A DNA stretch of 64,000 nucleotides. It comes from Planctomyces sp. GTDB lineage: Bacteria; Planctomycetota; Planctomycetia; Planctomycetales; Planctomycetaceae. The translations under genes and the position numbers were made by a program. Where the stretch lies: contig JAEUIH010000020.1 of assembly GCA_016795105.1 (NCBI GenBank), positions 1 to 64,000 on the forward strand, given 5' to 3'. The notes below the pieces were generated by a model. That model searched no databases. It had not been told where the DNA came from and was given only the letters and a program-made list of their open reading frames with translations. Positions 4,962 through 49,264 of this stretch are shown in pieces. Numbering within the stretch: the stretch's first letter is position 1; the number at the start of each line of letters is the position of its first letter.

Positions 4962-4971
4962 GGTGGCCTTC

Positions 4972-11785: not shown

Positions 11786-12080
11786 GGCAATTGAACTCCG
11801 AAGGGTAAATTCTGAACGGGTGAACCTGGGTGATCATTGTGATGAACGGAAGACGTGGCGTCGAGGTGCCGATGGAATTCGTTTGCAGCGATCATACGGG
11901 TTGAGCTGGAAATAGCGGTTGTGCCGAACCGAGAGGCGAGGAAGAGTGGACAATGTGGTGAAAAAACAACGTCTCCTTAAAGTCATGAGGCATGTTTGAG
12001 ATGGACCGGTGGAATCTGTTCAGAACGCCGCAGTCTGTACCGAATTCTCCCACCTTTTTGAGTCCACCGGAATCCGCTCC
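11786..12080. other. Divergent promoter region
   Basis: Separates the enolase-superfamily gene (minus) from the TMTC-like gene (plus). No strong dyad or repeat was seen. The open frame that enters this region from the right has only a GTG start at 12009 and no clear ribosome site, so the TMTC start is placed at 12081. Confidence 0.4.
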
Positions 12081-13499
12081 ATGTGGAAGACACGGCTTCA
12101 GCAGATTCTGTGCCTGATTTCGCTTCTGGTCCCGGCGATCGCGACCTGGTGGACGGCAATTTCGTTTGACTTCATCAATTGGGATGATCCGTCTTACATT
12201 TTGAGTAACAGTCTGATCCGTGGCTGGTCGCTGGAGAATCTGTCCGGGATTTGTACCGAGACAGTGACTCGCAACTACGCACCGATCACGATCTTCTCTT
12301 ACCTTGTGGACCATACGATCTGGGGTCTGCAGCCGGCCGGTTATCATCTGAGCAACATCATCGGTCACTGTATCTGTGGAATGTTGGTTTATGTTCTGGT
12401 GAGTCGGCTGACGGGAAGTGCGTTTGTCGCGTGGACCACGGCGATGTTGTTTCTGGTGCATCCGGTACAGGTAGAGACGGTCGCCTGGGTCTCGTCTCGA
12501 AAAGGGATTTTGTCGGGTATCTTCATGTTGTGGGCGCTGGTGGTTCGGCTGAGAAGTGACCTGCAGCCAAAGCATGACGCCTGGTACATTGGACTGTTGA
12601 TTGCGGCCCTGTTGTCGAAGGCGCTGGCGGTCGTTCTTCCGCCGATCGTGTTTCTGTATGACGTGTTGATTCGGCGTGATCGGATCTCAGATGCAATCGT
12701 CCGTCAGTTCATCCCTGGATTGATCTCGCTGTTGTTGCTTTTGCATACAACTGGCGCACAGAACACGGTGATGGGTGGAGTGCGTGGGCATATGAATTTG
12801 AGCCTTGCAGAGATCGTGGCGGTTGATATCACGATACTGTGGCAATACATCGGAATGATGATCTGGCCCGCCGATTTATGTGTGCTTTACGATCCTCCGA
12901 CGGCCGGCATTGCGCTTCCGGTGATCGTCGGAAGCATCGGCTGGCTGATTGTCGGGGCGGTGATCTGGAGATATCGCAGGGAAGCACCTTTGTTGTTGTG
13001 GGCAGCCGCTACGTGGTTACTGCTTTTGTTTCCTGTGTTGAATTTCTTTCGCATTACAACGTTGATGAATGATCGCTACCTGTACCTGCCGTGCATCGTT
13101 TTCTTTGGTGTCGTGGCAGCATTGGTGGAGCATGTTGCGTCGTTGTTGATGAGACGCTGGAAGGCTGAACTTCGAACTGCGGTGCTGATGTTCTGTTCGC
13201 TGATAATTTCGCTGGCCGCATGCAGGCGAACGACGGAGTATCTGCCGGTGTTTGGTGAATCAGAACGGTTGTGGACGTATGCCATGGAGCGATGTCCGCA
13301 GCTGGTGGTCGTTCGAATCCAGATGGCACTGACGCTTTACGATCGAGGACGCACTGAAGAAGCGATTGAAGTCATGGAGACAGCGCTACGGGAGTGTGAG
13401 ACGGATGAGCTGGATCGCAGACGCATGGTGCGAACGCTTGAACGCTGGGGAGTTTCGTCGAGCCAGCAGCATGCATCTTCGGGCGGCACGAAATCCTGA
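12081..13499 (+). CDS. TMTC-like multi-pass membrane protein with C-terminal TPR-like end
   Basis: A GT-C-fold type membrane protein resembling the TMTC/DUF1736 family of putative lipid-linked glycosyltransferases. The first TM segment (about 8-28) is followed by FINWDDPSYI with the paired Asp (D35, D36) typical of the first extracytoplasmic loop. NYAPI, HLSNIIGHC, HPVQVETVAWVSSRKG and the late loop NDRYLYLP are also family marks. About ten further hydrophobic segments follow. The last 70 residues (LYDRGRTEEAIEVMETALREC) look like one TPR-like hairpin. The substrate is unknown; surface glycan or protein glycosylation is an inference. It stands alone, upstream of the Tad locus. Confidence 0.78.
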   Translation: MWKTRLQQILCLISLLVPAIATWWTAISFDFINWDDPSYILSNSLIRGWSLENLSGICTETVTRNYAPITIFSYLVDHTIWGLQPAGYHLSNIIGHCICGMLVYVLVSRLTGSAFVAWTTAMLFLVHPVQVETVAWVSSRKGILSGIFMLWALVVRLRSDLQPKHDAWYIGLLIAALLSKALAVVLPPIVFLYDVLIRRDRISDAIVRQFIPGLISLLLLLHTTGAQNTVMGGVRGHMNLSLAEIVAVDITILWQYIGMMIWPADLCVLYDPPTAGIALPVIVGSIGWLIVGAVIWRYRREAPLLLWAAATWLLLLFPVLNFFRITTLMNDRYLYLPCIVFFGVVAALVEHVASLLMRRWKAELRTAVLMFCSLIISLAACRRTTEYLPVFGESERLWTYAMERCPQLVVVRIQMALTLYDRGRTEEAIEVMETALRECETDELDRRRMVRTLERWGVSSSQQHASSGGTKS

Positions 13500-13730
13500 G
13501 AAATCGGGAGGAGTACGAGTGAAAAATGAAAGATCAGAAAAATTTTTGACCACTGGAAAATCTGACCTAGGTTGTAGATGTAAAGCATTCGGAAAGCGAG
13601 CAGCAAAGCGAGCCCCGAGTGAATGAGTGAGGGTGAAGCCTGCGTTGCAGGAGTTCAATATCTGGACGGGAATCATTCCGTCGTGACGTCACAAGCCCTG
13701 ATACGGGCACCTTTTTGAGGGGAATTGCAC
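13500..13730 (+). promoter_or_regulatory. Leader region of the Flp pilin genes
   Basis: About 230 bp upstream of the first pilin with no gene. A strong ribosome site (GAGGGGA) lies 7-13 bases before the pilin ATG. Several short open frames cross the region but none has a start with a ribosome site. The promoter was not pinned down. Confidence 0.35.
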
Positions 13731-13904
13731 ATGACAAAGTTCGCAAACAGTATTAAGAAGTTCCTGGTTTCTGAAGACGGCCCAACGGCAGTTGAATACG
13801 CCGTTATGCTTGCTCTGATCATCGTTGTGTGTCTGGCAGCTGTGTCAACAGTTGGTACCAGTGCCAACGACAAGTTCACAGAAGTCGGCAACTACCTGAC
13901 ATAA
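13731..13904 (+). CDS. flp: Flp/Fap-type pilin 1 (57 aa)
   Basis: Major-pilin-like subunit of a Tad/Flp type IVc pilus. It is 57 residues: a basic leader (MTKFANSIKKFLVSEDG), the prepilin peptidase site G17|PTAVEY with Glu and Tyr at mature positions 5 and 6, then one hydrophobic helix (AVMLALIIVVCLAAVST) and a short polar tail. The ribosome site is GAGGGGA. The paralogue at 14100 is the same length and about half identical. Two hairpins lie between them, which fits extra stabilisation of this first and presumably most abundant message. Confidence 0.92.
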   Translation: MTKFANSIKKFLVSEDGPTAVEYAVMLALIIVVCLAAVSTVGTSANDKFTEVGNYLT

Positions 13905-13926
13905 TTGAAGAGCCGAGGGCTGGAGA

Positions 13927-14020
13927 GGCAGCCGCTGGCTGCCCCGGCGAAATGGTCGGCTCCGGTCTGAAAGTACAAACTTCTGCATGGGAGCGACAGT
14001 CCACTGGATTGGTCGCTCCC
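13927..14020 (+). terminator. Two hairpins between the pilin genes
   Basis: GGCAGCC-GCT-GGCTGCC (13927-13943) and a perfect 9-bp stem GGGAGCGAC/GTCGCTCCC (13989-14020) follow the first pilin. No T-tract follows either. Partial termination, or RNase-blocking stems that protect the upstream pilin message, fit better than full termination. The next pilin starts 80 nt later. Confidence 0.5.
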
Positions 14021-14099
14021 TGTGTTTGCACTGTTCGGAAAATGACCGAACCAGCCATCGAGATTCTGAGATTTGTTTCAGGAACGGGAGCTTCTCAAA

Positions 14100-14273
14100 A
14101 TGACTCATTTTGTAAAAGCAGTCAGCTCCTTCCTTCGATCCGAAGACGGGCCGACGGCAGTAGAGTATGCGGTGATGCTGGCCATGATCATCATAGTCTG
14201 CATTGCTGGCGTATCGACACTCGGTTCAAACACCAGCACGCATTTTACTGACGTCAGCGATTTCATCACATAG
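14100..14273 (+). CDS. flp: Flp/Fap-type pilin 2 (57 aa)
   Basis: Second Flp pilin, also 57 residues, with leader MTHFVKAVSSFLRSEDG, cleavage site G17|PTAVEY and the hydrophobic helix AVMLAMIIIVCIAGVST. The start at 14100 is favoured by a GGGAG site ten bases upstream and by the exact length match with pilin 1. An upstream in-frame ATG at 14073 would add nine residues and break that match. The tail differs most from pilin 1, so the two may be a major/minor pair. It sits in the tad gene run. Confidence 0.92.
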   Translation: MTHFVKAVSSFLRSEDGPTAVEYAVMLAMIIIVCIAGVSTLGSNTSTHFTDVSDFIT

Positions 14274-14306
14274 GAATCTGAAGCAGGTTGACTGTACTGA
14301 GGTGAG

Positions 14307-14426
14307 ATGATGATGCCGTTCTGGATTGAGCTGAGTTCTGAAGAACTGATACAGGCTGTTGGAATGCTTGGCATGGCCTTCAGCTTCTTTTTTCTGCGAT
14401 TCGTGGCATCGGCGGGACGAGCTTAG
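14307..14426 (+). CDS. Candidate 39-aa membrane peptide in the tad locus
   Basis: A short frame opening with three consecutive ATG codons right after GAGGTGAG and ending at TAG 14424-14426. It encodes MMMPFWIELSSEELIQAV, then a hydrophobic stretch (GMLGMAFSFFFLRFVA) and a short basic end. It fills the gap between pilin 2 and the prepilin peptidase gene, on the same strand. A 7-bp hairpin (GGGACGA/TCGTCCC, 14414-14434) has the stop codon in its loop. No family is recognised. The ribosome site and the single TM make it worth listing, but it may be non-coding. Confidence 0.45.
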   Translation: MMMPFWIELSSEELIQAVGMLGMAFSFFFLRFVASAGRA

Positions 14427-14500
14427 TTCGTCCCGTCGCTGTCGTGAACGCGTTTCCCCTGATCCCCACTCAATGTCTTGCAGACGCAAGGAGCACAACA

Positions 14501-35357: not shown

Positions 35358-38300
35358 CTACAGGCCCACCTCCAGTTGCTTGATGGCATTCAGGCTGTTC
35401 TTTCCATCTCCATCATTGACCGAGAAGACGATCGATCGAGTCAGGAGAGAAGGCGAAGCGCTGGTGTTGAAGAAGCCGATTCGTCTCGCCAGTTTCTGTG
35501 CAGCAGCGGGAGTAGCATTGTTGTTGAACAGGATTCGCAGAGGCGCGTTTGAGGTGAAGCCACCGGTGTAAGTACCGATGACAATCCCCTCATAGAGCAC
35601 ACTGGTGCCAGCGAGGTTGATCTGCCCCGCTCCATTACCTTCGGCAATGATCGTGAGACGATCGGTGGTCTGTTTGTTGGTGGAGAGCGAGATGAGGAGA
35701 AATCCACCGGCGAAATCTGCTGAGTCAACATCTTCAACCGTGATCGCATCGTCAATCACAGTCGCTCCGCCACCCGCGGTATAACTGCTGTTTCCGGCGG
35801 ATGTGGTGATGACCGGTGCATCATTGACGCCCGTGACTTCGATGATTCGGTCGGCGTGATTACTGATGCCTCCGGAACCATCAGTCAAAGACAGTCGGAC
35901 GGTGCGAGCGGAATTCGCGGTATTTCCAACGATGCTGAACGTCAGGTTTCTCATCAGAGCGCGAGTTGCAATGACTGACGCGTTTTCGTTGAGAGAGATG
36001 ACAAGATCGCTGCCATTCTGACCGCCGGAAACTGTACCGATGACGACCGTCGTTCCTCCGATGCCGTAAGTGACATTGGCTCCATCGAGATTGATTCGGC
36101 CGTTCCCTGCACCCTGGTTACGAATGCCAAGCTGATCAGCACCCGTGGCTCCGGCAATCAGAGATACGGTCAGCGTGCCTCCGTTGAAGTATGGTGAGTC
36201 AGGATCCGCAACTGTCGCAGCGCTGGCAATCAGCACTGGAATTGCGTCTTCGCTGTATTTCACCGAGAGGCCACCGTTTGTGATTACAGGGCTATCGTTG
36301 GTTACCGAAACTTCAATCTGTCTGGTGGCGGCGGTGCTTGACTTACCGTCACCATCATTGACGACAAAGCTCACGGTTCTTGTCAGTTCCGTCGCATTCA
36401 GGCCAGCGTTGTGGAACGCGATTCTTCGAGCCAGTTGCTGAACGGCTTCAGGTGTCGCGCTGGCGTTGAGAGTCACGATGAGTGGGTTGCTGGTTGTGAA
36501 CCCGCCCGTGAACGTTCCAATGGGAATGCCTCCATACAGGACGGTGTTTCCGGAAACGTTGATCTGTCCTTCAGCGTCTCCTTCGACAAGGATAGAGAGT
36601 CGATCCGTTGTCTGGCGATTCACCGTGATTGTCACGGTGAGTCTGCCGAGGTCAAAATCCGGAGAGTCAGAGTCAGCAACCGTGACACTGGAATCAATCA
36701 CCACAGGTGCAGTATTTTCGACGTACAGGGCGTTGCCTTCTCCGGTCACAACCACGGGACCATCGTTCACCGGCGTGACGGCGATGACTCGAAGTGCAGC
36801 ATCACTGATTTCTCCATCTCCATCGGCAACGACAAATCGTACAGAGCGTTCTTCGCTTCCCGGGTCATCTGAGAGATTTCGGAAAGCGATTCGACGCATC
36901 AGCAGTCGGGTTGTTGAGGGTGTAGCAGCGGATGTCAGAGACACGACGAGTGGTTCACCATTGGTCCCACCGGTCCATGTACCGAGAATGACGGTTCCTC
37001 CTCCGGTGACTCCGAGTGTAATCGTGTCGCCACTGACTCCAATCTGATTTTTTCCGGTGCCCTGATGAAGAATGATGAGTTCGTCGGCAGGATGTGCATG
37101 GATTGGGATATCGGCCCGCAGCTGACCACCTTCAAAGTTTGATGAGTCTGCATCCGTCAGAGCAGGATTCGCATCCACAATTCGGGGAGCCGACTGTTCA
37201 GTGTAGAGGAGTTCTCCCTCTGTCGTGTTGATCACCGGAGCAAGTCCGAGATTGACAGAGAAGTAGTAAGTCACATCGCCACTGCTGACGACGGTTCCCT
37301 CACCTCCATCCGGGATGATGCCGAATGCTTCGAAGGTCACCGCATAGACGCCGGTTGCAGTGAACGCCATATCAAAGTGGGAATGTGTACCTGTTTCGAG
37401 GAGGAGTACATCGGCTTCACTGATTCCATTTGAGGACGTCAGGTATGGTGTTGGAGTTCCGAAGGAGTCAGTACTCCAGAGCGAATAGAATCCCGGTCCG
37501 CTGACGGACTTCAGACGGAGGCTGATTTCGTTTCCGACAAATGTACCGTCCGGAATTTCTTCGGTTGCAATTCCAAGGAACGGAAGAGAGGGATTCTGGA
37601 CAGACGGAAGAACGTAGATAGTCGAACCTCCGGCAGCGCCCAGGAACGAGAAGTCCGGACTTTCCGGGGCCGGAGCTGCGGATGACGGTCCGAGCTGAAT
37701 CAGGATTTCGTCGGGACTGTATTCGATCCCGCCGTGTTCTTCTTCGTGACCTTCTTCATGGGCGTGCTCTTCACCTTCAACATGAACATGCAGATCCCAT
37801 GCACCATCTTCGAAGGCCAGGCCAAGGTCAGCATGATCCTTTGTCAGGCCCGCAATGAACTGCGGAAGGCCGGAGACTTCCGTCAGAAATGATTCACTGG
37901 ATTGAAAGCCATTGGCATCTGTCACCGTAACTGTGATCGTTGTTGAGCCTACCTGATCCAGTACGGAGGTGAGCTGAATCGTTCGGTTTGCACCGCTTCC
38001 GCCAAGAATAATGTTCTCTTGAGGGATCACACCTGGATTGGAAGTAGATACTGTGACGACCAGATCTTCGGCAGCTGTCAGATCGTCAGCAACCGTGAAT
38101 GGAATCGCTCCAGTTGAGTACCCTTCGACAATAACACGGTCGGCGATCTCTGAGATTGTTGGTGCGGAGTTACCGTCGTTGTCAGTGATTGTCAGAACAG
38201 TGCTCGTGATACTGCCGAGCAAGCCATTGGCATCGCCTTCAACGCCTGTGAGGTAGTCGTTTAGATTCTCTGGTGTGGGAGCTGTCAATTCAAGGAAAAT

Positions 38301-39410
38301 TGTTTCATCGCTTTCGGTATCAGAGTCGTCCAGCATCGGAATGCTGATCGTCTTTCGAGTCTCGCCATCGAGGAATTCAATGGTTCCGGAAGCAGCCGTG
38401 TAGTCACTGCCGGAACTTGCCGTGCCATTACTCGTCGAATAGTTGACAGCTATACGACCATCGCTGCCACCGACACGAACAACGTCGATGGATGCCGTCC
38501 CGGCACTTTCGTCGACTGTATAACTGCTGGATTCGAATTCGACTTCACCGGCACTCATAACCGAGAAGTACAGCGTGAGGCTGCTACTCTGGCTATATCC
38601 CGCAAGGTTGGGCGTTGTGAGGCCATCGTCACCGAAATGGGCTGACAGACGGACATCGACTTCATATCGTCCGGGACTCGAGAACCCAAAGTTGTAGTGG
38701 GCATGTCCGTCGGAAACGATCCACAAAGCATCGTCTGCTGAGATGCCGTCTGTTGCGTCGAGGCCACTGCCGTTGGGATTCGAAACGCCGTCATTATGCG
38801 ACGACATGAAGACATTGACTGACCCAAATGAACCCGTTTGCCAGAGCGAAAACACTCCACTGCCGTCTGATCCGTCAGAATTGGTATGGCGGACATCTGC
38901 CAGGGAGACTTTGGCCCATCGCGCGTTTCCGGAGACACGCCCCTTCGACTCAATGGATGGATTGTAACGATCCACGGTGTTATTGAGCCCATAACCTGCA
39001 AAGCCAAGATACAGAAGGTCAGGGTCCTGTGACTGTGGCAGAACATAGAAACTTTGACCGGCACCCACACCGACAAAATTGTAGTCAGCACTTGCCGGTC
39101 GATTGATCGCGGAAGGTGATCCGGCATACATCAATGCGGCATCGTTCGCGTACTGGACTTCGGGAAACACATCGGAGTTACGGGGACCAATCGACCAGCT
39201 CGTTCCATCGTGCATCAGGTTAATGTCAACATGTTCCGTCGTGAGGAACGTCTGCAGCGACGATGTCAGAAGCGAGCGAGTCTCCAGTCTTTCGAGTGAG
39301 CTTACAGACTGTCGATGTCGCCTGGCTGAAGAGCGGCGACGAGTTACGTTTCGACCCAGATGGGACTTTGCCAGAAATGAACGAACGAGCGAGCGGAAAT
39401 TTTTTAGCAT
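35358..39410 (-). CDS. Giant surface protein: two choice-of-anchor-M-like domains, Calx-beta, His-rich loop, cadherin-like repeats
   Basis: 1350 residues. A basic N-terminus ends in LERLETRSLL (39-48), the motif seen at the start of many planctomycete exported giants. Residues about 55-285 and 530-730 look like choice-of-anchor-M domains (paired features: HVDINL/HADLGL, YVLPQSQDP/YVLPSVQNP, DGHAHYNFGF/TGTHSHFDMAF). A Calx-beta domain (about 290-400) and a linker domain lie between them. The second M domain contains a His/Glu-rich loop near 537-560. Four cadherin-like repeats of about 150 residues close the protein. It is third on the minus strand after the Cys/His-rich and DUF1559 genes. Capture of metal or a metal complex at the surface is inference. 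Confidence 0.72.
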   Translation of the reverse strand: MLKNFRSLVRSFLAKSHLGRNVTRRRSSARRHRQSVSSLERLETRSLLTSSLQTFLTTEHVDINLMHDGTSWSIGPRNSDVFPEVQYANDAALMYAGSPSAINRPASADYNFVGVGAGQSFYVLPQSQDPDLLYLGFAGYGLNNTVDRYNPSIESKGRVSGNARWAKVSLADVRHTNSDGSDGSGVFSLWQTGSFGSVNVFMSSHNDGVSNPNGSGLDATDGISADDALWIVSDGHAHYNFGFSSPGRYEVDVRLSAHFGDDGLTTPNLAGYSQSSSLTLYFSVMSAGEVEFESSSYTVDESAGTASIDVVRVGGSDGRIAVNYSTSNGTASSGSDYTAASGTIEFLDGETRKTISIPMLDDSDTESDETIFLELTAPTPENLNDYLTGVEGDANGLLGSITSTVLTITDNDGNSAPTISEIADRVIVEGYSTGAIPFTVADDLTAAEDLVVTVSTSNPGVIPQENIILGGSGANRTIQLTSVLDQVGSTTITVTVTDANGFQSSESFLTEVSGLPQFIAGLTKDHADLGLAFEDGAWDLHVHVEGEEHAHEEGHEEEHGGIEYSPDEILIQLGPSSAAPAPESPDFSFLGAAGGSTIYVLPSVQNPSLPFLGIATEEIPDGTFVGNEISLRLKSVSGPGFYSLWSTDSFGTPTPYLTSSNGISEADVLLLETGTHSHFDMAFTATGVYAVTFEAFGIIPDGGEGTVVSSGDVTYYFSVNLGLAPVINTTEGELLYTEQSAPRIVDANPALTDADSSNFEGGQLRADIPIHAHPADELIILHQGTGKNQIGVSGDTITLGVTGGGTVILGTWTGGTNGEPLVVSLTSAATPSTTRLLMRRIAFRNLSDDPGSEERSVRFVVADGDGEISDAALRVIAVTPVNDGPVVVTGEGNALYVENTAPVVIDSSVTVADSDSPDFDLGRLTVTITVNRQTTDRLSILVEGDAEGQINVSGNTVLYGGIPIGTFTGGFTTSNPLIVTLNASATPEAVQQLARRIAFHNAGLNATELTRTVSFVVNDGDGKSSTAATRQIEVSVTNDSPVITNGGLSVKYSEDAIPVLIASAATVADPDSPYFNGGTLTVSLIAGATGADQLGIRNQGAGNGRINLDGANVTYGIGGTTVVIGTVSGGQNGSDLVISLNENASVIATRALMRNLTFSIVGNTANSARTVRLSLTDGSGGISNHADRIIEVTGVNDAPVITTSAGNSSYTAGGGATVIDDAITVEDVDSADFAGGFLLISLSTNKQTTDRLTIIAEGNGAGQINLAGTSVLYEGIVIGTYTGGFTSNAPLRILFNNNATPAAAQKLARRIGFFNTSASPSLLTRSIVFSVNDGDGKNSLNAIKQLEVGL

Positions 39411-39520
39411 AACTCAGGGTCCAGTCTGATTTGTGAGGATAAAAATGCGACGCCGACCAGACCATCGCGAGAAATTGCTTTGAAGAACAATACCTGGTAG
39501 CCACCTTGTGGCAGGAGTAC

Positions 39521-40306
39521 TTATTGGAGTTCCGGGCAACCGTCGGGCAGTGAGAAGTTCTTTTCCTGATCCGCCCACTGCCGAACGGTAGAAGCCGGAA
39601 TCAGCTGTACATGACCATCGGCAAAGAGGTAGTTTGCATATCCAGAGTTCCGTTTCTCTGGAGCGGTTCCAGTCGACGCGCCTCCGAAGCGGTCTGGCTG
39701 GATGTCTGACAGAATGCGGTTCCATGTCAGGTTCCTGGGATTCTTGAACCAGTTTCTTGAATGTGTGTGGTCTTCCGTCGTTGAGGTTCCCTTTGAATCT
39801 GAAATCGTAAAGACCATGATGGTCCTGGATGTCGCATCAAGAGAGTTGAGACTCAGAGCTGCATTGGGCCCCTGTACACACAGATACTCGTTCAGGATGT
39901 AGCTCGTTCCCTTGTTCTCAATCCGTTCTGCTCCTTTCGGATCTTCCGGGCAAATGCGAATCCGATCCACATTTTCCAGGTAGGGAGCGATCTGATAGAT
40001 CCATGTCTCTTCAAGATTCGAAGTGCTGTGCGATGACTTAGGGAACTGGTTTTTGTGCGTCTGACAGAACTGATGAATCGCAAGTCCAATCTGGCGCATG
40101 TTGTTGGCGCATTCTGTACGTCGCGCGGATTCTCGGGCCTTTTGCAGAGCTGGTAGTGTGATTGCCAAAAGAATACCAATCACAGCAATCACGATCAGCA
40201 GCTCGATAAGTGAAAATCCGGCATGGCGGACTTGCTGGTGAGACCCGGATGATTGGCGAGCGGCTTGGGTTCCTGAACGTTGATTCCCTGACGAGGTGGA
40301 TTCCAT
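39521..40306 (-). CDS. DUF1559-type pseudopilin (prepilin-like)
   Basis: 261 residues with a type II pseudopilin N-terminus: prepilin site [29 protein letters not shown] near residue 29, methylated-Phe type with Glu5. [16 protein letters not shown] follows, and the ending [13 protein letters not shown] corresponds to the H-X9-DG region, with the leading His not conserved. The start at 40306 has AAGGAG nine bases upstream; the frame is open for 67 more codons but those lack a ribosome site. It is placed between the Cys/His-rich secreted protein and the giant surface protein. Confidence 0.85.
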
Positions 40307-40650
40307 GCTGTTGTGCTCCTTCGATTCTGTGGAAGATGACTTCAAACTCAATGACTGATCAGGGAAACTAAGGCCGTGAAGGCGAGGTCTGGCTGAACCA
40401 GAAGAGTCTGGGTGGCTCAGAAGGTGTGCGGGCTCCGCTGCGAATTCAGATGCAAGAGGACTGGTCGGTTCCCAAAACGCTCTGTTTCCGCAGCGGAGTG
40501 TGCACAACTCGCAACAACCTTCGCAGCATGTCTCATCGGTGTTGGCTGAAGACCTGTGCCGAACTGCGGGGATCCGAAGTCTGAAAAACAGATCCGGATA
40601 CTCTCCGATACGACATCTTCAAAAAGAATGCCACGAGAACGCTGCCAACA
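40307..40650. other. Spacer inside the minus-strand envelope locus
   Basis: 344 bp between the Cys/His-rich gene and the DUF1559 gene. It holds an inverted pair, 'gggctccgctgcg' (near 40429) and 'cgcagcggag' (near 40489). No gene or TGCA-type dyad was seen. Confidence 0.4.
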
Positions 40651-41097
40651 TCAGCCGCAGGGCGGGCCTCTGGAAGCGATTCGAATCATGCTGGCTCGCG
40701 GAGATGGCAACCAGCAGCAAACATGGATTCGTTCGGTCTGGCTGACAGCAATCGCGGATACTCTGGCCGCAACGATTCCGGAGAGTTGCGTGATCAGGTC
40801 ACAGACGGGGCACGAGTGCGGGTCTGACTCATCAGGGGATTCGTTCGGCGAGTCATCGCGATCAGAGCCAGACTCAGTGTCTGAACCGGAAAGCTCGGTT
40901 GCAGATTTTCCACAGTGGTGACCACAACGACAGAGGGGCTGCTCAGGGTGCTTCCCATCGAGGTTGTCGTCGACCGAAGCGCCAGACGCGTGCCGATGCG
41001 GACAGCAGTTGTGGTGAACTGCGTCAGCGAAAGTCCAGACCAGCATGCAAAGAAAGCAGAGACTGGTCGGCAAAACGCGTGTGAGTGCGCAATGCAT
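40651..41097 (-). CDS. Secreted Cys/His-rich small protein
   Basis: 148 residues, family not recognised. A signal peptide ends near FADA-VHH (residue 26). The mature part carries HHNCCPHRH, then CRCGHHCG, an acidic Ser/Asp stretch, HSCPVCDL, and CC and C near the end: over ten Cys and many His, an obvious metal-binding composition. The start at 41097 gives the clean signal peptide; the frame runs on to a GTG inside the TGCA dyad at 41233-41249, which favours that dyad being promoter. Its setting (CobN-like machine upstream, candidate Zur box) suggests a zinc- or haem-handling role, which is inference. Confidence 0.6.
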   Translation of the reverse strand: MHCALTRVLPTSLCFLCMLVWTFADAVHHNCCPHRHASGASVDDNLDGKHPEQPLCRCGHHCGKSATELSGSDTESGSDRDDSPNESPDESDPHSCPVCDLITQLSGIVAARVSAIAVSQTERIHVCCWLPSPRASMIRIASRGPPCG

Positions 41098-41232
41098 GCG
41101 TGTGAAAATTCGTCTATTGAAAGATTTCGACCGACCAGTCGTAACCTCGATTCTATGAACCGGCGAAGTTGGGTCAAGAAACATTTGTGGTTGTCTGGGT
41201 AACTTTGCACTGATTTTGCAAAAGCGGGTTAA

Positions 41233-41249
41233 TTGCATTTGTATATGCA
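41233..41249 (-). promoter_or_regulatory. Candidate Zur box A
   Basis: TTGCATTTGTATATGCA, with TGCA-N8-TGCA symmetry and a TGCATA half-site on the minus strand. It lies 136 bp before the Cys/His-rich gene and 17 bp past the CobN stop codon. It resembles the dyads at 47705, 57159 and 60153. Confidence 0.45.
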
Positions 41250-41266
41250 CCTCAGTCTCTGACAGG

Positions 41267-44200
41267 CTAACGAGAGGCTGCGAGGTTTCCTGAGAAAGTC
41301 CTCCTGAGGGATTCGGAAATCAGGGCTGTCGAACAAAGCAGAAGGCAAAGCAGCAGGACGCCCCACGCAGGCTGTTCCTGATCGTTCCTGCTGGCTGTTT
41401 CTTTGACTTCCTCCTGAACTTCTTCCATTTGAATACCGGTCACTTCCGGGAGTGGGTTTGACGGCTGGAGAGTTGAGTTGAGGGAGGCTTGATACTGTGA
41501 CTGAAGTTCCGGGCTGCCCGAAGTGCCAGGTGCATTTAGTTGTTGCAGCAGGAACTCATGAAGAGACTGATTTCCGCAGGTTTCATAAGAGCACGCTGCG
41601 CCATGCTTCACGACGAGTTCCGCATGCAGTGATGCGATATTCTGCAGGACAGACGGATCCGGGCTCCAATATCCTTTACGAGCTGTTTCGAGCATTACGG
41701 AGGTCATATCCTGCAGAGCGTACGGATTCCTGTCTTCGAAGTACTCTCTCATGTTCAGGTCGTGTTTATCCTGCACATAGACCTGATAGGTTTCATCCCA
41801 CATATCCTGTTTGATGGCTGCTGGCTGCATCACATTCCAGCCGTACATGTTTCGTACTGTTTCTGTGAGTGCTGCTGCTGCGGTGGGGCCCTCTTTCTGC
41901 ATTCCTTTAATGAAAGCGGGGTTCCAGAGAGTGGTTCTGGCTTCTTCACGAATGGCGCCGATTGACGTTGTGACTCGGGCTTTTCCGGGCTGGCGCTGAT
42001 CGCTGAAGTACCCGGTCGGATCAACTCCCGTCTTTTCGCGGACTGCGAGCGTGATTCCACCCATGAATTCATAGACATGGTCGAGCGACATTGGGCCCCA
42101 GGTGTTTGATGATCGAGGATGAACGACGACTTCGACACCCTGCAGCTGGGCTTCCAGCAATCCCGGCACAACGGTCCCCCAGCGATCTCCGTCTCTATAA
42201 ACGCCCGACATATTGTTGATGTACCGATCGGCTACTTCACTGGATTGTTCCCACGAGTCTCCTTTTTCAACCATGCCCATGATCTGAGTGCCATAGCTGC
42301 TGTTCGACGCCGAGCCGAAGATTCTGGCAGTGGAAAAGTCACGAGCATCTCTGGCTGAAACGCCACTGGCTTTGAGAGTCTTCTCTGTTTCTTCGGATCC
42401 TTCACGTACAAAATTGGGGAATTCCTCCGGCCCCAGAGCGCTGACAATCTGAACGGCTTTGTCGATCAGGCTGATTCGAGATGCTGCAGCATCTCGAAAC
42501 TGCCCGGAGGTTTGTACGAGCACATCGATTCGAGGTCGGCCGAGTTCCGTTGCCGGAATGATTTCCACATCATGTACAACACCGCGAGAATTCCAGACGG
42601 GCCGCATTCCCATAAGAAACAGGATCTGAGCGATACCGGTGCCCTTGCTGCGAATGAACTCTCCGCCCCATAGTGAAATGGCCACCTGTTTCGGGTATTG
42701 TCCGCCGTTCGAAGAGCGATGTGCTTTTAACATCTCATCGGTAAGACGCATACCAACACGCCAGGCCTCCTGAGAGGGCGTTTGTTCTGCATTGATCGAA
42801 AACAGATTTCTGCCAGTCGGAATTGACGACGGATTGACGATCGGATCTCCGCCGCTGGATGGTTCGATGTATTCCGTATTCAACGCACCAACAATTCGGT
42901 TCAACTCCTCGGAGGGTGAGCTTCGGAGCCGAACGGCATTCTGTTCCATGTTCTGCAGGAGTTGATAGAGCTTCCTGCGAACTTTCGGGTCGGCGTTGAG
43001 CCTGGCTTTGAGGTCTTCAACATCTGCATAGAATCGAGGCGATTTCTCCTCAGCGTTATCAGGTGGTGTCACGGATTCATCTGTATTCAGAGACGTCAGT
43101 ACTGGTTGAGCCCATCTGTGAGCAACAGTGTTACCGGACTGAAGCGACGATTGTGAATTGGTCGCGGGCACCGATCGGCTTCGAGGACGGGCAGGCTGCT
43201 GATCACTTGCAGGGTCGGCAGCACTGTTTGCTCCGGCATCACCGTCTGCTCCGGCAGCACCATTCGCGCCGGCAGAGTTACCACGCGCACCTGCGCCCGC
43301 AGAACCGGGGCGTCCGCCGGTTTTTGTTGGTCCAGACCAGGCATCCGGTGCGTTTTCCGCGGCTTCCTGCCTGTCAAATTCTTTTCGTTCATCCTCTGTG
43401 AACAGCAGCGAAGCCGAGATTGTTCCGGAGAGCGCGTCATTGACGAGCTGAGTCGTGAGTTCCATCTGATATTCGCGAGGGTCTCCGGCATCATCAAGCT
43501 GTACAGCCTGGACGATTTGTTCAACTCCCTGATCTCCCACCATTGCAGAGACCGTTTTTTGAATCTGATCGTCGTTCAGTTCACGTCCAATGACGTGCAG
43601 ACCATCTGTCACGCTTTGATCTTTAAGCTGATGAATGTAGTTATGGACAGCCGTCAGTTCGTCTTCCGAGAGCAGTCTTTGCGCAAGGGCTTCTTCATCG
43701 AGTCCCAGATCGACTGCCAGCTTCAGCTCTCGAACGAGATTCGTGGCTGAGCGAAGCGTTTCTTCACGGAGCAGAGGGTCCTCAATCTGTTCCCAGTCAT
43801 GAATTTTGTCATGCAGCAGGGACAATTCGCCATAGAGTCCTGCTTCCATAAACGGAGGAGTGAGGTGTGAAACGATGACAGCGTTAGAGCGACGTTTCGC
43901 CACGAGAGCCTCACCAACATTATTGATGACATATGGGTAAATGTGAGGGATGTCTCCGATCAGAATCTGTGGCCAGCAGTCGCGGCTCAGGCAGTTTGAT
44001 TTGCCGTACGTGAATTCGAGGGAGCCGTGAGTCCCAAAGTGCAGGATCGCGTCGGCTTTAAAGCCATATCGAGCCCACAGGTAAGCACCCAGATAAAAGT
44101 GCGGGACGGCCTGATCCGTACCATGAATGGAACTGATCTCGTCTTCTCCCTCGTCTCCGCCGCCGACAGTTGGCTGCGGCATGATGACAATTTTTCCAAG

Positions 44201-45676
44201 CTGAATGCGACTGATCACGAGATTCGGCTCACCGTTGACATTCGTGACCATCCGATCGCCCGGCAGATCTCCCCACAGATCAATCGTTTCTTTCTGGCGC
44301 ACTGGCGAGAGCGTTTTCTGAAACCAGACAGCGTATTGCTGCGCTGGAACCAGTTCAGGCTCAGCCTCTTTCAGGAACTGTTCGTACGAGCCCAGCGCCC
44401 ACTGACCGATTGTACGACCTTTGGTCTGTATCATCTGAAACAAGGCTTCGGGGGATTCAGGAACTGAACTTCCCAGATCATACCCTTCTGATTCCAGTCG
44501 TTTCAGGGTGTTCCAGAGAGCCGGTGCAACTTCAAGTCCACCGGCCGAGAGCGCAGCCATACCCGGTGACTTGTAGTAGACGATGACGAGTCGTTTATCG
44601 AAGTTCTGCTTCTTTCGCAGCTTTAGCCAGTTGAGTGCCAGACTGACGCGTGACTGCATTTGTTCATCGATTGGTGTGCGTACACTGAGCCGACGTTCGT
44701 TGGGCTCCATAGAAGAGACAACGATCGGCTCGATGATTCCATCCAGTTCCGGAGAAGTTATGGACTGACCGAGAAAGCCGCCTTCCATGCCACGTTCGTC
44801 AGCCATCCATTTCTCTTCACTGCTCATCAGTGGCAATGCACTCACGACAGGGCAGTTGAGTTCCTTGAGCAGCCGAGTTCCCGAGTCACCGGTGCCGAGG
44901 CGTCCGTGGGGAAACGTAAGAACGAGATCGGGACGAACTTCACGCAACAGGGAGAACGCTTCCATTCGTCCAAAGACGGGATAGACACGTGCGCCTCCCT
45001 GTTCGAGCGCGGTGATCATGGCGTCAACCGGAGCTCGGTTCAGCAGATCATGAGGGTCAGCGAAGCCAGCCAGAAGTGCAATTCGAGGAGCATCGGCCGG
45101 TATGCCAGGGTTATTCTGAACAAGAAAGCTGTCAAATTCGGGAAGTGTCTCGAGAACGATGCTGCCGAGATGGAAGAAGCCAAACTGAGGCCGCTCCACC
45201 ACCGGTGGGACTTCCACGTCACGGCCTGCAAGATGATGGGCTGCATAGTGAGCCATGCCGATCAGGTTTTGTTCGCCTCCGTGTCGCATGTACAGATCGA
45301 TCTGTTCGCGATGTTCAGGTGGAACCGAGTTTTGCTGTTCTGACAGAGCGTTCGTCGCAGTGCGAATGTAGATATGCGTCCCCGCAGAACGGGCGCGATC
45401 CAGGCGCTTGACCTGTTCGGGTGTGAGATTCAGGCCTTGACCGCGGATGAAGACGAGCCGGTAATTTGTCAGGTCGGCAGTATCAATTCCGTCATCAGCA
45501 TATCGATGCAGAATATAAGGCGTCTTTTGAATTGCGGATTCCCAGTTCGCCCAGTCCGTGTCGGAGAATCCAACAACTGCGATCCGGACAGGACGAAGGT
45601 ACTCGGAGTAGACCCAGAGACCGGCCAGCGTGCAGACAATCAGGAGGGTGACTGAAATCATCAGCTTCCGTATCAT
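41267..45676 (-). CDS. Membrane-anchored CobN/HmuS-like chelatase
   Basis: A 1469-residue member of the CobN/ChlH/BchH chelatase family. An N-terminal TM anchor (7-26) leads to IAVVGFSDTDW and the CobN body, including HFGTHGSLEFTYGKS near 544, IGDIPHIYPYVINNVGEA, SINAEQTPSQEAWRVG, ISLWGGEFIRSKGTGIAQILFLMGMRPVW and a late ACSYETCGN. A Gly/Ala-rich insert (about 775-830) splits it and a second TM (about 1436-1452) ends it. True CobN is cytosolic and works with CobS/CobT. Two membrane anchors plus adjacent ExbB and DUF2149 genes are instead like HmuS of Bacteroidetes, a CobN relative acting on haem. Whether this one inserts or removes metal is unknown. Confidence 0.85.
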   Translation of the reverse strand: MIRKLMISVTLLIVCTLAGLWVYSEYLRPVRIAVVGFSDTDWANWESAIQKTPYILHRYADDGIDTADLTNYRLVFIRGQGLNLTPEQVKRLDRARSAGTHIYIRTATNALSEQQNSVPPEHREQIDLYMRHGGEQNLIGMAHYAAHHLAGRDVEVPPVVERPQFGFFHLGSIVLETLPEFDSFLVQNNPGIPADAPRIALLAGFADPHDLLNRAPVDAMITALEQGGARVYPVFGRMEAFSLLREVRPDLVLTFPHGRLGTGDSGTRLLKELNCPVVSALPLMSSEEKWMADERGMEGGFLGQSITSPELDGIIEPIVVSSMEPNERRLSVRTPIDEQMQSRVSLALNWLKLRKKQNFDKRLVIVYYKSPGMAALSAGGLEVAPALWNTLKRLESEGYDLGSSVPESPEALFQMIQTKGRTIGQWALGSYEQFLKEAEPELVPAQQYAVWFQKTLSPVRQKETIDLWGDLPGDRMVTNVNGEPNLVISRIQLGKIVIMPQPTVGGGDEGEDEISSIHGTDQAVPHFYLGAYLWARYGFKADAILHFGTHGSLEFTYGKSNCLSRDCWPQILIGDIPHIYPYVINNVGEALVAKRRSNAVIVSHLTPPFMEAGLYGELSLLHDKIHDWEQIEDPLLREETLRSATNLVRELKLAVDLGLDEEALAQRLLSEDELTAVHNYIHQLKDQSVTDGLHVIGRELNDDQIQKTVSAMVGDQGVEQIVQAVQLDDAGDPREYQMELTTQLVNDALSGTISASLLFTEDERKEFDRQEAAENAPDAWSGPTKTGGRPGSAGAGARGNSAGANGAAGADGDAGANSAADPASDQQPARPRSRSVPATNSQSSLQSGNTVAHRWAQPVLTSLNTDESVTPPDNAEEKSPRFYADVEDLKARLNADPKVRRKLYQLLQNMEQNAVRLRSSPSEELNRIVGALNTEYIEPSSGGDPIVNPSSIPTGRNLFSINAEQTPSQEAWRVGMRLTDEMLKAHRSSNGGQYPKQVAISLWGGEFIRSKGTGIAQILFLMGMRPVWNSRGVVHDVEIIPATELGRPRIDVLVQTSGQFRDAAASRISLIDKAVQIVSALGPEEFPNFVREGSEETEKTLKASGVSARDARDFSTARIFGSASNSSYGTQIMGMVEKGDSWEQSSEVADRYINNMSGVYRDGDRWGTVVPGLLEAQLQGVEVVVHPRSSNTWGPMSLDHVYEFMGGITLAVREKTGVDPTGYFSDQRQPGKARVTTSIGAIREEARTTLWNPAFIKGMQKEGPTAAAALTETVRNMYGWNVMQPAAIKQDMWDETYQVYVQDKHDLNMREYFEDRNPYALQDMTSVMLETARKGYWSPDPSVLQNIASLHAELVVKHGAACSYETCGNQSLHEFLLQQLNAPGTSGSPELQSQYQASLNSTLQPSNPLPEVTGIQMEEVQEEVKETASRNDQEQPAWGVLLLCLLLCSTALISESLRRTFSGNLAASR

Positions 45677-45679
45677 AAA

Positions 45680-46150
45680 TCACCTCTTTTCACTTTCAGC
45701 TGGCACATAGATGACTCTGCCATCAGGCAGTCGATAAGCCTGACCGAGCAGTTCGCCCTGACCGGCTCCGGTCGCATCTGTTGCTTCGTAGCGTTTAATC
45801 TCGTTCTCTTCCTTGACGATAATTTCCATCTCCGGAGTTCCAGGGTTTGTGATGACCGTATAGTCACTCTGGTTAAGTAATGCCGGGATTTGCAGATACG
45901 ATACGAGGGCCACCATCAGGGCAACGGAGAACACCATGGCCACGTCAAAAAGGTTGACGAGTCCTGCCAGCGGATCGTCTTCTTCGTGTTCTGCCATGTT
46001 GCCTGAGAATGAACTCCGACGATGCTGAAAACGAAGCTCCAGTGTTGCCGACGCACGAGTGCGATCCGCGACGAAGTTGACAGCCGTTGCGGAGCCAGCG
46101 GTTGTCGGGCCTGCCGTAGAGGAATCCGATGCGATGCTGGAATAGCTCAT
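45680..46150 (-). CDS. DUF2149 protein, ExbD-like partner
   Basis: 156 residues. A Ser/Ala/Thr-rich cytoplasmic N-terminus leads to EEDDPLAGLVNLFDVAMVFSVALMVALVSYL, one TM (67-87) with an Asp (D69) at its start. The periplasmic end includes EIIVKEENEIKRYEAT and AYRLPDGRVIYVP. The Asp-at-TM-start layout is that of ExbD/TolR, where that Asp carries protons. The start at 46150 overlaps the ExbB-like gene by ATGA and the stop is 3 nt before the CobN start, so the three are coupled. Confidence 0.8.
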   Translation of the reverse strand: MSYSSIASDSSTAGPTTAGSATAVNFVADRTRASATLELRFQHRRSSFSGNMAEHEEDDPLAGLVNLFDVAMVFSVALMVALVSYLQIPALLNQSDYTVITNPGTPEMEIIVKEENEIKRYEATDATGAGQGELLGQAYRLPDGRVIYVPAESEKR

Positions 46151-46833
46151 GCAGGAACCTCCTCTCCGGAACGAATCGCCAACGGGTGATTGGCGGACGC
46201 AGCGGCTGCTTCCTGTCTGGCGGCAGCTGGGATTCCAGCAACTGCAGGCGGGCAATTCAGACTGCTGAGCCGGTCAGCAGCAAAATTCAGCAGCGCAGCG
46301 TCCGCCTGATACCACCGTCGTCTGAGGGATGTGAGTGAGGCTGCAATCATTCCAACGAGCAGGCCGATAACGGTTGTTGAAAATGCGATGACAAGATTGC
46401 TGCTCATCGTCTGAATGTCACCAACTGCCAAACCAACCAGAGCCGGGCCGAGGGGAATCAGAGTCCCCATCAGCCCCAAAGCCGGGCCGTTCCGAATGTA
46501 GGACCGCAGGACATCGAGTCTTTGCTGCCACTGCAGTTCTGCCTGGCTGATACTGAATGCCATCCGAGAGTTGTCGTTCCATCCGGCAATCAGCGATTTG
46601 AGTGAACTACAGAGAACCCCGTTACCCGGGAGTTCCGGCCATGTGGCTGCTGATCCGATCAGGCAGTGCTCCAGCGTACGGCGAGCCGACTTCTGGCGGG
46701 CTCGTTCCAGATATTCATACATCACCTGGCCAATGAGCATCAGGATTCTCGTGAGTGCCCACAACAACGCCAGCATCATTGGGATCAGAAGAGCCGAAGA
46801 AAGGACGTAGAACGTTTGAGTGATCAGATTCAT
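46147..46833 (-). CDS. MotA/TolQ/ExbB-family proton channel
   Basis: 228 residues with three TM segments (about 9-35, 113-138, 146-170). The family core is YIRNGPALGLMGTLIPLGPALVGLAVGDIQTMSSNLVIAFSTTVIGLLVG. ExbB/TolQ proteins form pentamers that use the proton gradient to move a partner in the periplasm. Here the partner should be the DUF2149 protein, whose start overlaps this stop, and the machine should energise the CobN-like protein. No TonB or TonB-dependent receptor gene lies in the window. Confidence 0.85.
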   Translation of the reverse strand: MNLITQTFYVLSSALLIPMMLALLWALTRILMLIGQVMYEYLERARQKSARRTLEHCLIGSAATWPELPGNGVLCSSLKSLIAGWNDNSRMAFSISQAELQWQQRLDVLRSYIRNGPALGLMGTLIPLGPALVGLAVGDIQTMSSNLVIAFSTTVIGLLVGMIAASLTSLRRRWYQADAALLNFAADRLSSLNCPPAVAGIPAAARQEAAAASANHPLAIRSGEEVPA

Positions 46834-46880
46834 TCAGAAGATTCCAGTTCGAATACGGTCGTTCGGGCTGCGTTGGGGTT

Positions 46881-47633
46881 TCACAGTCCGGGGCCTGGTA
46901 GTCCGGAGTTTCTCAGCTCGGAGCTCCTCATCGAGGTCACAAAGCCCAGTCCGACAAGCACCGCGGAGACAGCAACCGCGACACAGAGTTCGCTGAGGGA
47001 GATGGATCGGATTTGAGAAGCGGCAGTGACATCCACAGCCGCCGGAAGTGATTGCCCGGCCGCAGACATGAGGATGCTCATCAATCCGCTGACCGTACAT
47101 AAACTCAGAGAAGCCATATTCCTGCGATCAGGGGTAAACAGTAAGCCGATCAGAGTCAGTCCTGCCACGACAGAGCCGCCCGCGATTCCGATCCAGAGTC
47201 CGACAGATTCGGGACGGCTGTTGGGAAGGCTCAGGAGTAACCAGTGCTCGGCAATCAGCATCTGTACTAGTAGTATCGGAGACGTGACCGTATGAATCAC
47301 TCCCACCGCAATTCCCCAGAATCGAATCTCCGGATCGCTGACCATCCGAACGGTTGCCGCGAAAGCTGCGACGATAAGTATCAACTGGAAGACACTAACA
47401 GGCAGCAGGACCGAATCTGCCAGTAAGAGTGCGCTGAGTTCTTCTGTGGAATTTGCGTCAGCGACAGGATTCATCAGGAATCCGGCAAGTGCAGTCAAAC
47501 CTGCCGCGAGAGGCAGCAAATGCCATTGGCGCGACGCTGCAAGTCCGATCGCGGTATTGAGCACAGCGATGAGGCAACATGCAGCGAGCAGCAGAAGGTC
47601 GGAACGCCCGATGAGTAGAGTGATTGATTCCAC
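46881..47633 (-). CDS. Hypothetical multi-TM protein heading the CobN operon
   Basis: 250 residues with about seven hydrophobic segments (first LLLLAACCLIAVLNTAIGLA; a central ILIVAAFAATVRMV; last LCVAVAVSAVLVGLGFVTS). No family is recognised with confidence. Bacteroidetes hmu operons also have an unassigned membrane protein next to the ExbB and DUF2149 genes, so this could be its counterpart. It sits 47 nt upstream of the ExbB-like gene. The promoter region to its right has two TGCA dyads shared with the divergent DUF1559 gene. Confidence 0.6.
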   Translation of the reverse strand: MESITLLIGRSDLLLLAACCLIAVLNTAIGLAASRQWHLLPLAAGLTALAGFLMNPVADANSTEELSALLLADSVLLPVSVFQLILIVAAFAATVRMVSDPEIRFWGIAVGVIHTVTSPILLVQMLIAEHWLLLSLPNSRPESVGLWIGIAGGSVVAGLTLIGLLFTPDRRNMASLSLCTVSGLMSILMSAAGQSLPAAVDVTAASQIRSISLSELCVAVAVSAVLVGLGFVTSMRSSELRNSGLPGPGL

Positions 47634-47704
47634 GAGTCAACCCCGGGGATAGCAGGAGCGACAGCGACATTCGCGACAGATCGCGTCGGTCAGAAAACAA
47701 AATA

Positions 47705-47758
47705 CATGCATACGCATTGCATGTGATGATTTGATACACTAGCATTGCAGGTGCATAC
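47705..47758. promoter_or_regulatory. Candidate Zur boxes B1 and B2 in a divergent promoter
   Basis: B1, CATGCATACGCATTGCATG (47705-47723), has perfect 6-bp arms CATGCA/TGCATG. B2, GCATTGCAGGTGCATAC (47742-47758), is a looser relative, 37 bp on. They sit between the CobN operon (minus) and the DUF1559 gene (plus) and could control both. Confidence 0.5.
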
Positions 47759-47797
47759 AGGCAATAGTTACAAAAACAGTTCCTGGAGAATTGGCGT

Positions 47798-48787
47798 ATG
47801 AATCGAAAACTGCGACTTCGGTCACGGGGGTTTACACTGATCGAACTTCTGGTGGTGATTGCCATTATTGCGATCCTGATTGCTCTGCTGCTTCCTGCTG
47901 TTCAGCAGGCGCGAGAGGCTGCAAGGAGGACTCAGTGCAAAAACAATCTCAAGCAATTGGGTTTGGCGATGCACAACTACGAGTCAACTCATTCAGTGTT
48001 TCCTCTGATTTCCTTCAATCATCAGGGCTATTCGCCTCAGGCTCAGATTCTGCCGTTTCTGGAGCAGGGGAACCTGCATTCGCTGATCGACTTCAATCAG
48101 CCATTGCTGGTGGGCAGTGGCCCAACAGCGACACTGAATCCGGTGCATATTGGGCTTCAGGATCGGCTGATTAACGTATTTCTCTGTCCTTCTGACAGTG
48201 GTGATCCGATGCTGTTTGATAGTGGATATCAATGGGCCGGTACGAACTACATGGTGAACACAGGATCGGGGGCGGGGCTGAACTACTTCGAAGGGGGTTC
48301 ACCGCAGCCGGACGGGATGTTCTGGCGCGGGTCGAGTACGAGGTTTCGTGACATTACCGATGGTACATCAAACACGCTGCTCATGGCTGAGACTCTGTTT
48401 GGCGGACGCAATGCTGTGTCAACCACAGTATTGACGGACGTGCGTCGGCAGACTCAGCGAGCAAGCGGTGGTGGCGGTCCGGGTAGCCGGACATCGGAGA
48501 ATTTGGTTGCTGCGGCTCCAGCCGGTTTCAATGGGGTTCGTGCGGGATCGTGGATTCGGACAACCGGGTATCACATCACAACGAATGGGTACTATACGCC
48601 GAACCATCGGCTGCCCGATGTGCTGCATCATGGTCATATTGTCGCAAGCAGTCGCAGTCTTCATACCGGAGGGACTCAGACGCTGTTGGTTGACGGGAGT
48701 GTTCGCTTTGTGTCTGACAGTGTGGACGTGGGCACATGGCGAGCTCTCTTCACACGCGGTACCGGCGAAGTCACGGGTGAGTTCTAG
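47798..48787 (+). CDS. DUF1559 (H-X9-DG) pseudopilin
   Basis: 329 residues of the large planctomycete DUF1559 family: prepilin site [35 protein letters not shown], then [16 protein letters not shown]. The ending [19 protein letters not shown] gives His plus nine residues plus Asp-Gly. The N-terminal helix should be cleaved and methylated by a PilD-type peptidase. It is divergent from the CobN operon across the B1/B2 dyads, so a link to that system is plausible, although planctomycetes carry very many DUF1559 genes. Confidence 0.92.
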
Positions 48788-48829
48788 GCGTTTCCGCAAT
48801 TCAAAGTTATCGCTACGAAGGTTGATCCA

Positions 48830-49264
48830 TTGTTGTCGAACGACATCGGGGAACTGCGGACGAGAATTCTGCAGGCTGTTTTGCTTGTGTTCATCTGTGC
48901 GGGTTGTTCGTCGGGAGAGGGGCAGCATTCCGAAGGGGGGACTGTCTGCGTGATTCTGGCGGGCATTCATCCGCTGAAGGATGTTCAGGTGTCGGTCTTT
49001 TCGGATGATCGCCCCGAAGATCAGCCCATTGCGTTCGGTATCTCAGATGACAATGGTCGACTACTTCTGAGACAGCGGGAATCACTTTCGGGGTTTCAGC
49101 TTCCGGAAGGTGGTTATCGGTTGACGATTGAGTCGGTCGGAGAGTTTCAGCTGATATGGCCCGGCGAATTCTCCGACCCACTCCGAACACCGCTGAAGCA
49201 GTTGTGGGCACCGAATGGCAGTGAGCTGATCCTGGATGTGCCGGAGCCAAAACTGAATCTGTAG
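48830..49264 (+). CDS. Small lipoprotein with a carboxypeptidase-regulatory-like fold
   Basis: 144 residues. The lipobox is LVFICAGC (Cys26 from the first TTG). After it, GTVCVILAGIHPLKDVQVSVFSDD, GISDDNGRLLLRQ and GGYRLTIESVG follow the pattern of transthyretin/carboxypeptidase-regulatory-like beta domains common next to DUF1559 genes in planctomycetes. The start is TTG at 48830 (GAAGG upstream), with another TTG three bases on; no ATG is available. It follows the DUF1559 gene by 42 nt. Confidence 0.65.
   Translation: MLSNDIGELRTRILQAVLLVFICAGCSSGEGQHSEGGTVCVILAGIHPLKDVQVSVFSDDRPEDQPIAFGISDDNGRLLLRQRESLSGFQLPEGGYRLTIESVGEFQLIWPGEFSDPLRTPLKQLWAPNGSELILDVPEPKLNL

Follow-up and report, generated by a model that had tools for sequence, protein, structure and literature searches.

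A planctomycete HmuTUVS-like operon that probably encodes a proton-motor-associated dechelatase in a genome lacking TonB-dependent receptors

Results

Gene content of the locus

The window, i.e. the whole stretch of 64,000 nt that was analysed, contains a four-gene operon on the minus strand that spans positions 41267-47633 and has the gene order hmuT-like, hmuU, hmuV, hmuS. The first gene (46881-47633) encodes an hmuT-like inner-membrane protein with seven predicted transmembrane (TM) helices. It is followed by the genes for an hmuU-like proton-channel protein of the ExbB/TolQ/MotA type (46147-46833; PF01618, 1.4e-10), an hmuV-like DUF2149 protein (45680-46150; PF09919, 2.8e-29, core at 45701-45970), and an hmuS-like membrane-anchored class I (de)chelatase of the CobN family (41267-45676; PF02514, 5.7e-294) with a length of 1469 aa. 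The multi-TM and ExbB genes are separated by 47 nt and the DUF2149 and CobN genes by 3 nt. The ExbB and DUF2149 genes overlap by ATGA, which holds if DUF2149 starts at the ATG at 46150, the likely start within an ORF that opens at 46255. This tight packing had been described in the first-pass annotation with the same spacings, and all genes named there were recovered in place from the ORF list and the Pfam and family profile matches. The genome (8.9 Mb; completeness 99.96%) encodes no further CobN-family protein and no further DUF2149 protein.

Three further minus-strand genes lie behind hmuS. They comprise a Cys/His-rich secreted ORF (40651-41250; likely start ATG 41097, 148 aa), a divergent (partial) DUF1559 pseudopilin (39521-40507; PF07596 7.3e-16 partial, N_methyl; likely start ATG 40306), and a surface protein of 1350 aa (35358-39410). 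The two choice-of-anchor-M domains (NF038134, 5.3e-52) and the His-rich loop (HVHVEGEEHAHEEGHEEEHGG) expected in the surface protein were seen, together with a Calx-beta domain. On the plus strand, a second, full-length DUF1559 type IV pilin-like pseudopilin (47798-48787; PF07596 1.4e-64, N_methyl, H-X9-DG) is divergent to the operon, followed by a small lipoprotein-like ORF (48830-49264; ORF call, no family match). The earlier count of one pseudopilin is correct for the partial gene at 39521-40507; it omitted the full-length gene inside the same interval, yet it is the latter that is conserved in relatives. A degenerate palindromic putative operator, TGCATACGCATTGCA, is found at 47707-47721, between the operon and the full-length pseudopilin gene.

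The chelatase belongs to the HmuS clade

The best PDB match of the window chelatase is HmuS of B. theta (9d26, 5.8e-271), compared with 2e-111 for ChlH and 1e-104 for CobN. In an IQ-TREE phylogeny of 41 family members (LG+C20), the protein groups with HmuS of Aureibacter tunicatorum at 100/100, and cytosolic CobN and BchH form a separate branch (100/99). The placement in the HmuS clade was also obtained with a quick tree. Aureibacter, which has a complete hmu operon (TonB receptor, HmuY, HmuS, HmuT, HmuU, and HmuV), stands in for HmuS in the tree; B. theta HmuS is not part of it and was compared directly via the 9d26 match. Clustering with cytosolic CobN, which had been named as an outcome that would overturn the first-pass reading, was thus not found, and its view of the protein as a planctomycete HmuS relative with ExbB and DUF2149 partners is supported by tree, motifs, and gene content. 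A cytosolic CobN for B12 was ruled out by the tree, the membrane anchors at both ends, and the gene context. For contrast, locus L039 encodes a cytosolic CobN that has no TM helix and lies beside other cobalamin-type ORFs.

HmuS is a demonstrated haem dechelatase with an essential His-538, and its defining features are the TM anchors, His-254, HFG(T/A)HG, LSLDHxxEFMGG, Met-79, and a methionine-rich insertion (PMC12583661). The window chelatase has the first four of these six features, but not Met-79 and the methionine-rich insertion. Hydropathy places a TM helix near each end. The catalytic His pair is kept in HFGTHG (His550) and MSLDHVYEFMGG (His1200), the latter differing from LSLDHxxEFMGG by one conservative change, L to M, and the neck motif His257-Gly-Arg is present, as is Gln304. 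Among 44 aligned sequences, HGR and SLDHxxEFMGG are confined to the HmuS clade; at the His1200 site other membrane chelatases have motifs of the LDNDD, LSNHH, or LSNKY type, and in most other energised chelatases Asp, Tyr, or another kind of His motif stands in its place.

Met-79 is the haem ligand observed at the head/neck site of HmuS (PMC12583661). In the alignment it is replaced by Gln80 in the window chelatase, and by Gln in the four close relatives too. The Met-79 criterion was derived from sequences with 50% or more identity to B. theta and may be too narrow, because Aureibacter HmuS likewise lacks this residue (Arg). Domain IV does contain an insert (197 residues between alignment marks); it is Gly/Ala-rich and contains 2 Met, compared with 21 Met in about 120 residues in B. 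theta HmuS. Because Met-79 and the methionine-rich insert are missing, the window protein is, as judged from its sequence, best termed a variant within the HmuS clade rather than a canonical HmuS.

Partner proteins

The window hmuT-like protein is 28-31% identical to its equivalents in the four close relatives (L002, L027, L029, and L031). The values are 13% for Aureibacter HmuT (not significant) and 16% for the equivalent in the Planctomycetota locus L079, so the likeness to these is one of position and topology only. The protein has no Pfam match, and its AF2 model, which is weak (mean pLDDT 67.6), yielded no significant fold match. All close relatives have an orthologue of hmuU (ExbB), and so do almost all loci of the phylum with an energised CobN.

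The DUF2149 protein consists of one TM helix and a short periplasmic domain. A near-invariant Asp in the helix (NLFD) aligns with the Asp position of ExbD/TolR at a score that is not significant; the profile comparison of DUF2149 with ExbD was also not significant, and a fold search with a weak model returned no ExbD match. DUF2149 can therefore be described as ExbD-like by its TM helix and Asp position, a resemblance that falls short of proven homology. Other ExbD-like proteins are encoded at seven places in this receptor-free genome (see below), suggesting that motors of the ExbB type have further roles here that involve no receptor.

Conservation in relatives and in the phylum

The order hmuT-hmuU-hmuV-hmuS is kept in four relatives, with HmuS identities of 65-67%. 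These are not four independent lineages, because L027, L029, and L031 share a genus, which belongs to the family of the window; the fourth, L002, is a Bythopirellula of another family. The close hmu form is rare and was found in just 4 of 100 genomes of the order, including the genome of the window. CobN relatives occur in 11 of the 100 genomes, seven of them being more distant than the close form. Six of these seven loci carry ExbB and DUF2149; the exception is the cytosolic CobN of L039. At the level of the phylum, 30 of 294 genomes have DUF2149, and nearly all fetched loci also contain ExbB and CobN. At most energised CobN loci the ExbB-DUF2149-CobN core is kept and HmuT was not seen by tblastn. 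A lack of conserved gene order, the second outcome that would have spoken against the first-pass reading, was therefore not observed: the order is kept in the four relatives and the core recurs across the phylum.

Several neighbouring genes were noted at these loci. In L027 (6818-7570), a siderophore-interacting protein of the ferric reductase type is encoded about 1.3 kb ahead of the hmu operon, with equivalents in L029 and L031. In L079, two PEP-CTERM secreted proteins of unknown kind (11906-14495) lie just upstream of a planctomycete hmuTUVS cluster that lacks an adjacent receptor. In another Planctomycetota locus, L080, an HmuS relative is split into two ORFs and is flanked by a 2Fe-2S ferredoxin (14128-14418), a candidate electron donor, and by a receptor over the TonB-hemin cut-off (3612-5804). 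Three loci of the distant clade encode a small Cys-rich lipoprotein beside the pseudopilin and CobN (L033:12092-12469, L036:12106-12450, and L041:7130-7609), with a C-x2-C-x~22-C-x3-C motif that resembles the TRASH-type metal-binding motif, and in L033 a PepSY-TM protein (3006-4304) follows the CobN/ExbB/DUF2149/pseudopilin locus.

The full-length pseudopilin and the putative operator

The full-length pseudopilin (47798-48787) has orthologues with 57-58% identity directly behind hmuS in L027, L029, and L031, where it is also followed by the lipoprotein-like ORF. In the window's family, all sampled energised CobN loci, about ten when the three same-genus ones are merged, have a DUF1559 gene directly next to them; none is beside the hmu operon in L002, and the cytosolic CobN locus L039 also has one. 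Genomes of the family contain at least 23-110 DUF1559 genes each (capped counts), and up to about 300 candidates. By a rough estimate, the chance of adjacency is 6-18% per locus, so that ten out of ten by chance is unlikely, an argument that is weakened by the kinship of the loci.

The evidence from the putative operator is stronger than that from adjacency. The four relatives have the exact palindrome TGCAATNNNATTGCA upstream of the operon (0/2000 shuffles each). In L002, the operon starts with an additional gene, and the palindrome lies ahead of it. A copy with one mismatch lies upstream of the pilin gene in L027, L029, and L031 (2/2000 shuffles each). In the window, the two-mismatch copy falls within the 164 bp that separate the operon from the divergently oriented pilin gene (16/2000 shuffles). 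We take the 7-1-7 layout of the palindrome to resemble Fur-family boxes. For G012, G022, and G037, the site before hmuT is the exact match that the genome scan listed. A genome-wide regulon was rejected, since 12-30 sites with up to one mismatch were found per genome versus roughly 20 expected by chance; the single exact site in the window's own genome (L124) has no obvious metal gene. From the shared site and the gene order, the pseudopilin is likely a co-regulated partner of the hmu operon.

TonB-dependent receptors are absent

The first-pass annotation had reported that no TonB receptor is present, and this holds for the whole genome: a profile search with the PF00593 barrel gave no match. 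The same is true for eight of the nine CobN-bearing relatives of the family, and the remaining one (G070) has two matches. Controls with E. coli, Caulobacter, and Bacteroides were positive, and three planctomycetes from elsewhere have five or more matches. A TonB-dependent receptor lies near the trio at 17 of 28 loci of the phylum and at none of the loci of the window's family. No gene of the interval was annotated as, or matched to, HmuY, and no haem-specific gene adjoins the operon in the window's genome.

The surface protein and the Cys/His-rich ORF

Both genes had been proposed as parts of the machine, the surface protein for capture and the Cys/His-rich protein for relay. This was rejected on co-occurrence. 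Among the order's 100 sampled genomes, the choice-of-anchor-M domain occurs in 9 and a CobN relative in 11; the genome of the window is the only one with both, which is the level expected by chance. Neither the three closest hmu carriers nor any other CobN carrier in this sample have the domain, and it occurs in the same-genus genome G054, where CobN is missing. Searches of the fetched loci by tblastn gave no match to the Cys/His-rich protein. Its gene is the least secure of those named, because a family match is missing and its codon-position GC profile is flat. The surface protein is probably an unrelated neighbour, and the Cys/His-rich ORF is likewise best read as one. For a link of choice-of-anchor-M with zinc, nothing by that name was found in a Corynebacterium paper.

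Discussion

Our preferred reading, to which we assign a probability of roughly 0.6, is that the operon encodes a planctomycete HmuTUVS module that removes a metal, most likely iron, from a tetrapyrrole, most likely haem, with a proton motor and without a receptor. The periplasm-facing, doubly anchored dechelatase would remove the metal between His550 and His1200. The ExbB-like HmuU and the ExbD-like HmuV would form a proton-channel motor, with HmuT as a small permease-like protein alongside. The motor may act on HmuS and perform conformational work, as the AAA+ partners do for CobN/ChlH; alternatively, it may serve product release or transport through HmuT. The pseudopilin, a likely co-regulated partner, may replace HmuY/HmuR in substrate capture outside the inner membrane. 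Function, substrate, and direction are assigned by clade membership, and metal insertion is less likely than removal because the protein sits in the HmuS clade. The haem-type assignment also counts in its favour the TonB-hemin receptor and ferredoxin of L080 and the reductase upstream of the operon in close relatives; Gln80, the Met-poor insert, the absence of an adjacent haem-specific gene, the other ExbD-like proteins, the unproven homology of DUF2149 to ExbD, and the activity of purified HmuS in vitro with NADH and without HmuTUV (PMC12583661) count against the haem and motor assignments. The last of these means that catalysis does not strictly require a motor.

The module resembles the Bacteroidota hmuYRSTUV systems (B. 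theta HmuS 9d26, P. gingivalis, B. fragilis BtuS) in the HmuS clade, both TM anchors, the His pair, HGR and SLDHxxEFMGG, the ExbB and DUF2149 partners, and, by position and TM count, the HmuT-like membrane protein. It differs from them in the lack of HmuY in the interval and of a TonB receptor both near the operon and genome-wide, in the order T-U-V-S instead of S-T-U-V, in Gln for Met-79 and an insert that is not methionine-rich, and in a pseudopilin that shares the putative operator. Cobaltochelatase (CobN with CobS/CobT) and Mg-chelatase (ChlH/BchH with I/D) belong to the same class I family (PF02514), but they are cytosolic, driven by AAA+ ATPases, devoted to cofactor synthesis, and placed on the separate branch.

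The wider family occurs in several metal contexts. On the Runella slithyformis plasmid pRUNSL01 (L077, 3110-11144), a TonB receptor, a NicO-like permease, ExbB, DUF2149, and a membrane CobN lie inside a hypBFCDE/NiFe-hydrogenase cluster, which suggests a nickel-linked branch, and in Azospirillum the trio is beside an iron-type ABC transporter. In Pseudomonas, the CobN-like protein of PA1922-PA1925 is likewise accompanied by a membrane protein that resembles a motor component, annotated as ExbD, and by a small hypothetical protein; this system has a TonB receptor, is strongly induced by zinc depletion in P. aeruginosa, and has a Zur site (PMC4542158), and its CobN-like protein is outside our tree. 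Taken together, these contexts make the family look multi-metal, with its members acting as energised chelatases of the periplasm on different metals and the window's protein on the haem-type branch. The Pseudomonas and Runella contexts also support the alternative that the machine of the window releases zinc, nickel, or cobalt from another periplasmic chelate, which other energised CobN-family members may do; so do the His-rich loop of the neighbour and the missing Met-79 and methionine-rich insert. We regard this as unlikely, though the strongest of the competing explanations: the Runella-type and Azospirillum-type proteins belong to other clades, the former with Asp at the His1200 site, no Zur or nickel context was encountered within the HmuS clade, and relatives with the operon do not keep the His-rich neighbour.

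The role of the ExbB-like and DUF2149 proteins in hmu operons is unsettled. The motor has been assigned to powering the receptor HmuR (PMC12583661), or HmuTUV is presumed to move haem inward across the inner membrane, as drawn for P. gingivalis (PMC13227078). With no TonB receptor in the genome, HmuUV cannot be there to energise one, and receptor-free genomes nevertheless keep HmuTUVS, which excludes the receptor-powering role there. According to the import model, HmuTUV would carry haem or a porphyrin across the inner membrane with power from the ExbB-like channel, and HmuS would mainly hand the tetrapyrrole over, without motor action on HmuS. It has on its side the published drawing and the fact that HmuT, with its 6-7 TM helices, persists in the HmuS clade. 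However, the constant partner of the motor is the chelatase and not HmuT, most loci of the wider family being without a visible HmuT, and the (weak) HmuT model matches no transporter fold. We therefore consider import somewhat less likely still. That the motor pair follows the chelatase even without a visible HmuT makes direct action on the chelatase the simplest reading, and HmuUV may drive HmuS directly, a view strengthened by the absence of receptors. The larger machine, with the surface and Cys/His-rich proteins as capture and relay parts in this lineage, is very improbable: both genes lie behind hmuS on the same strand and have potential metal-binding residues, but choice-of-anchor-M is missing from the other CobN carriers sampled and present in CobN-less genomes, including one of the same genus, and no Cys/His homologue was found beside any other fetched locus.

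The dechelatase reading would extend likely haem-iron stripping to planctomycetes, and it gives a concrete candidate role to one of their very numerous DUF1559 pseudopilins, which is likely co-regulated with the hmu operon. More tentatively, a class I chelatase might be driven directly by a proton-motive ExbB/ExbD-like motor that replaces the AAA+ ATPase, with a pseudopilin replacing the outer-membrane receptor in substrate capture. The receptor-free HmuTUVS genomes point to such a direct coupling of proton motor and chelatase, and, if it is true, planctomycetes free of TonB receptors would be a natural experiment showing a motor-driven chelatase.
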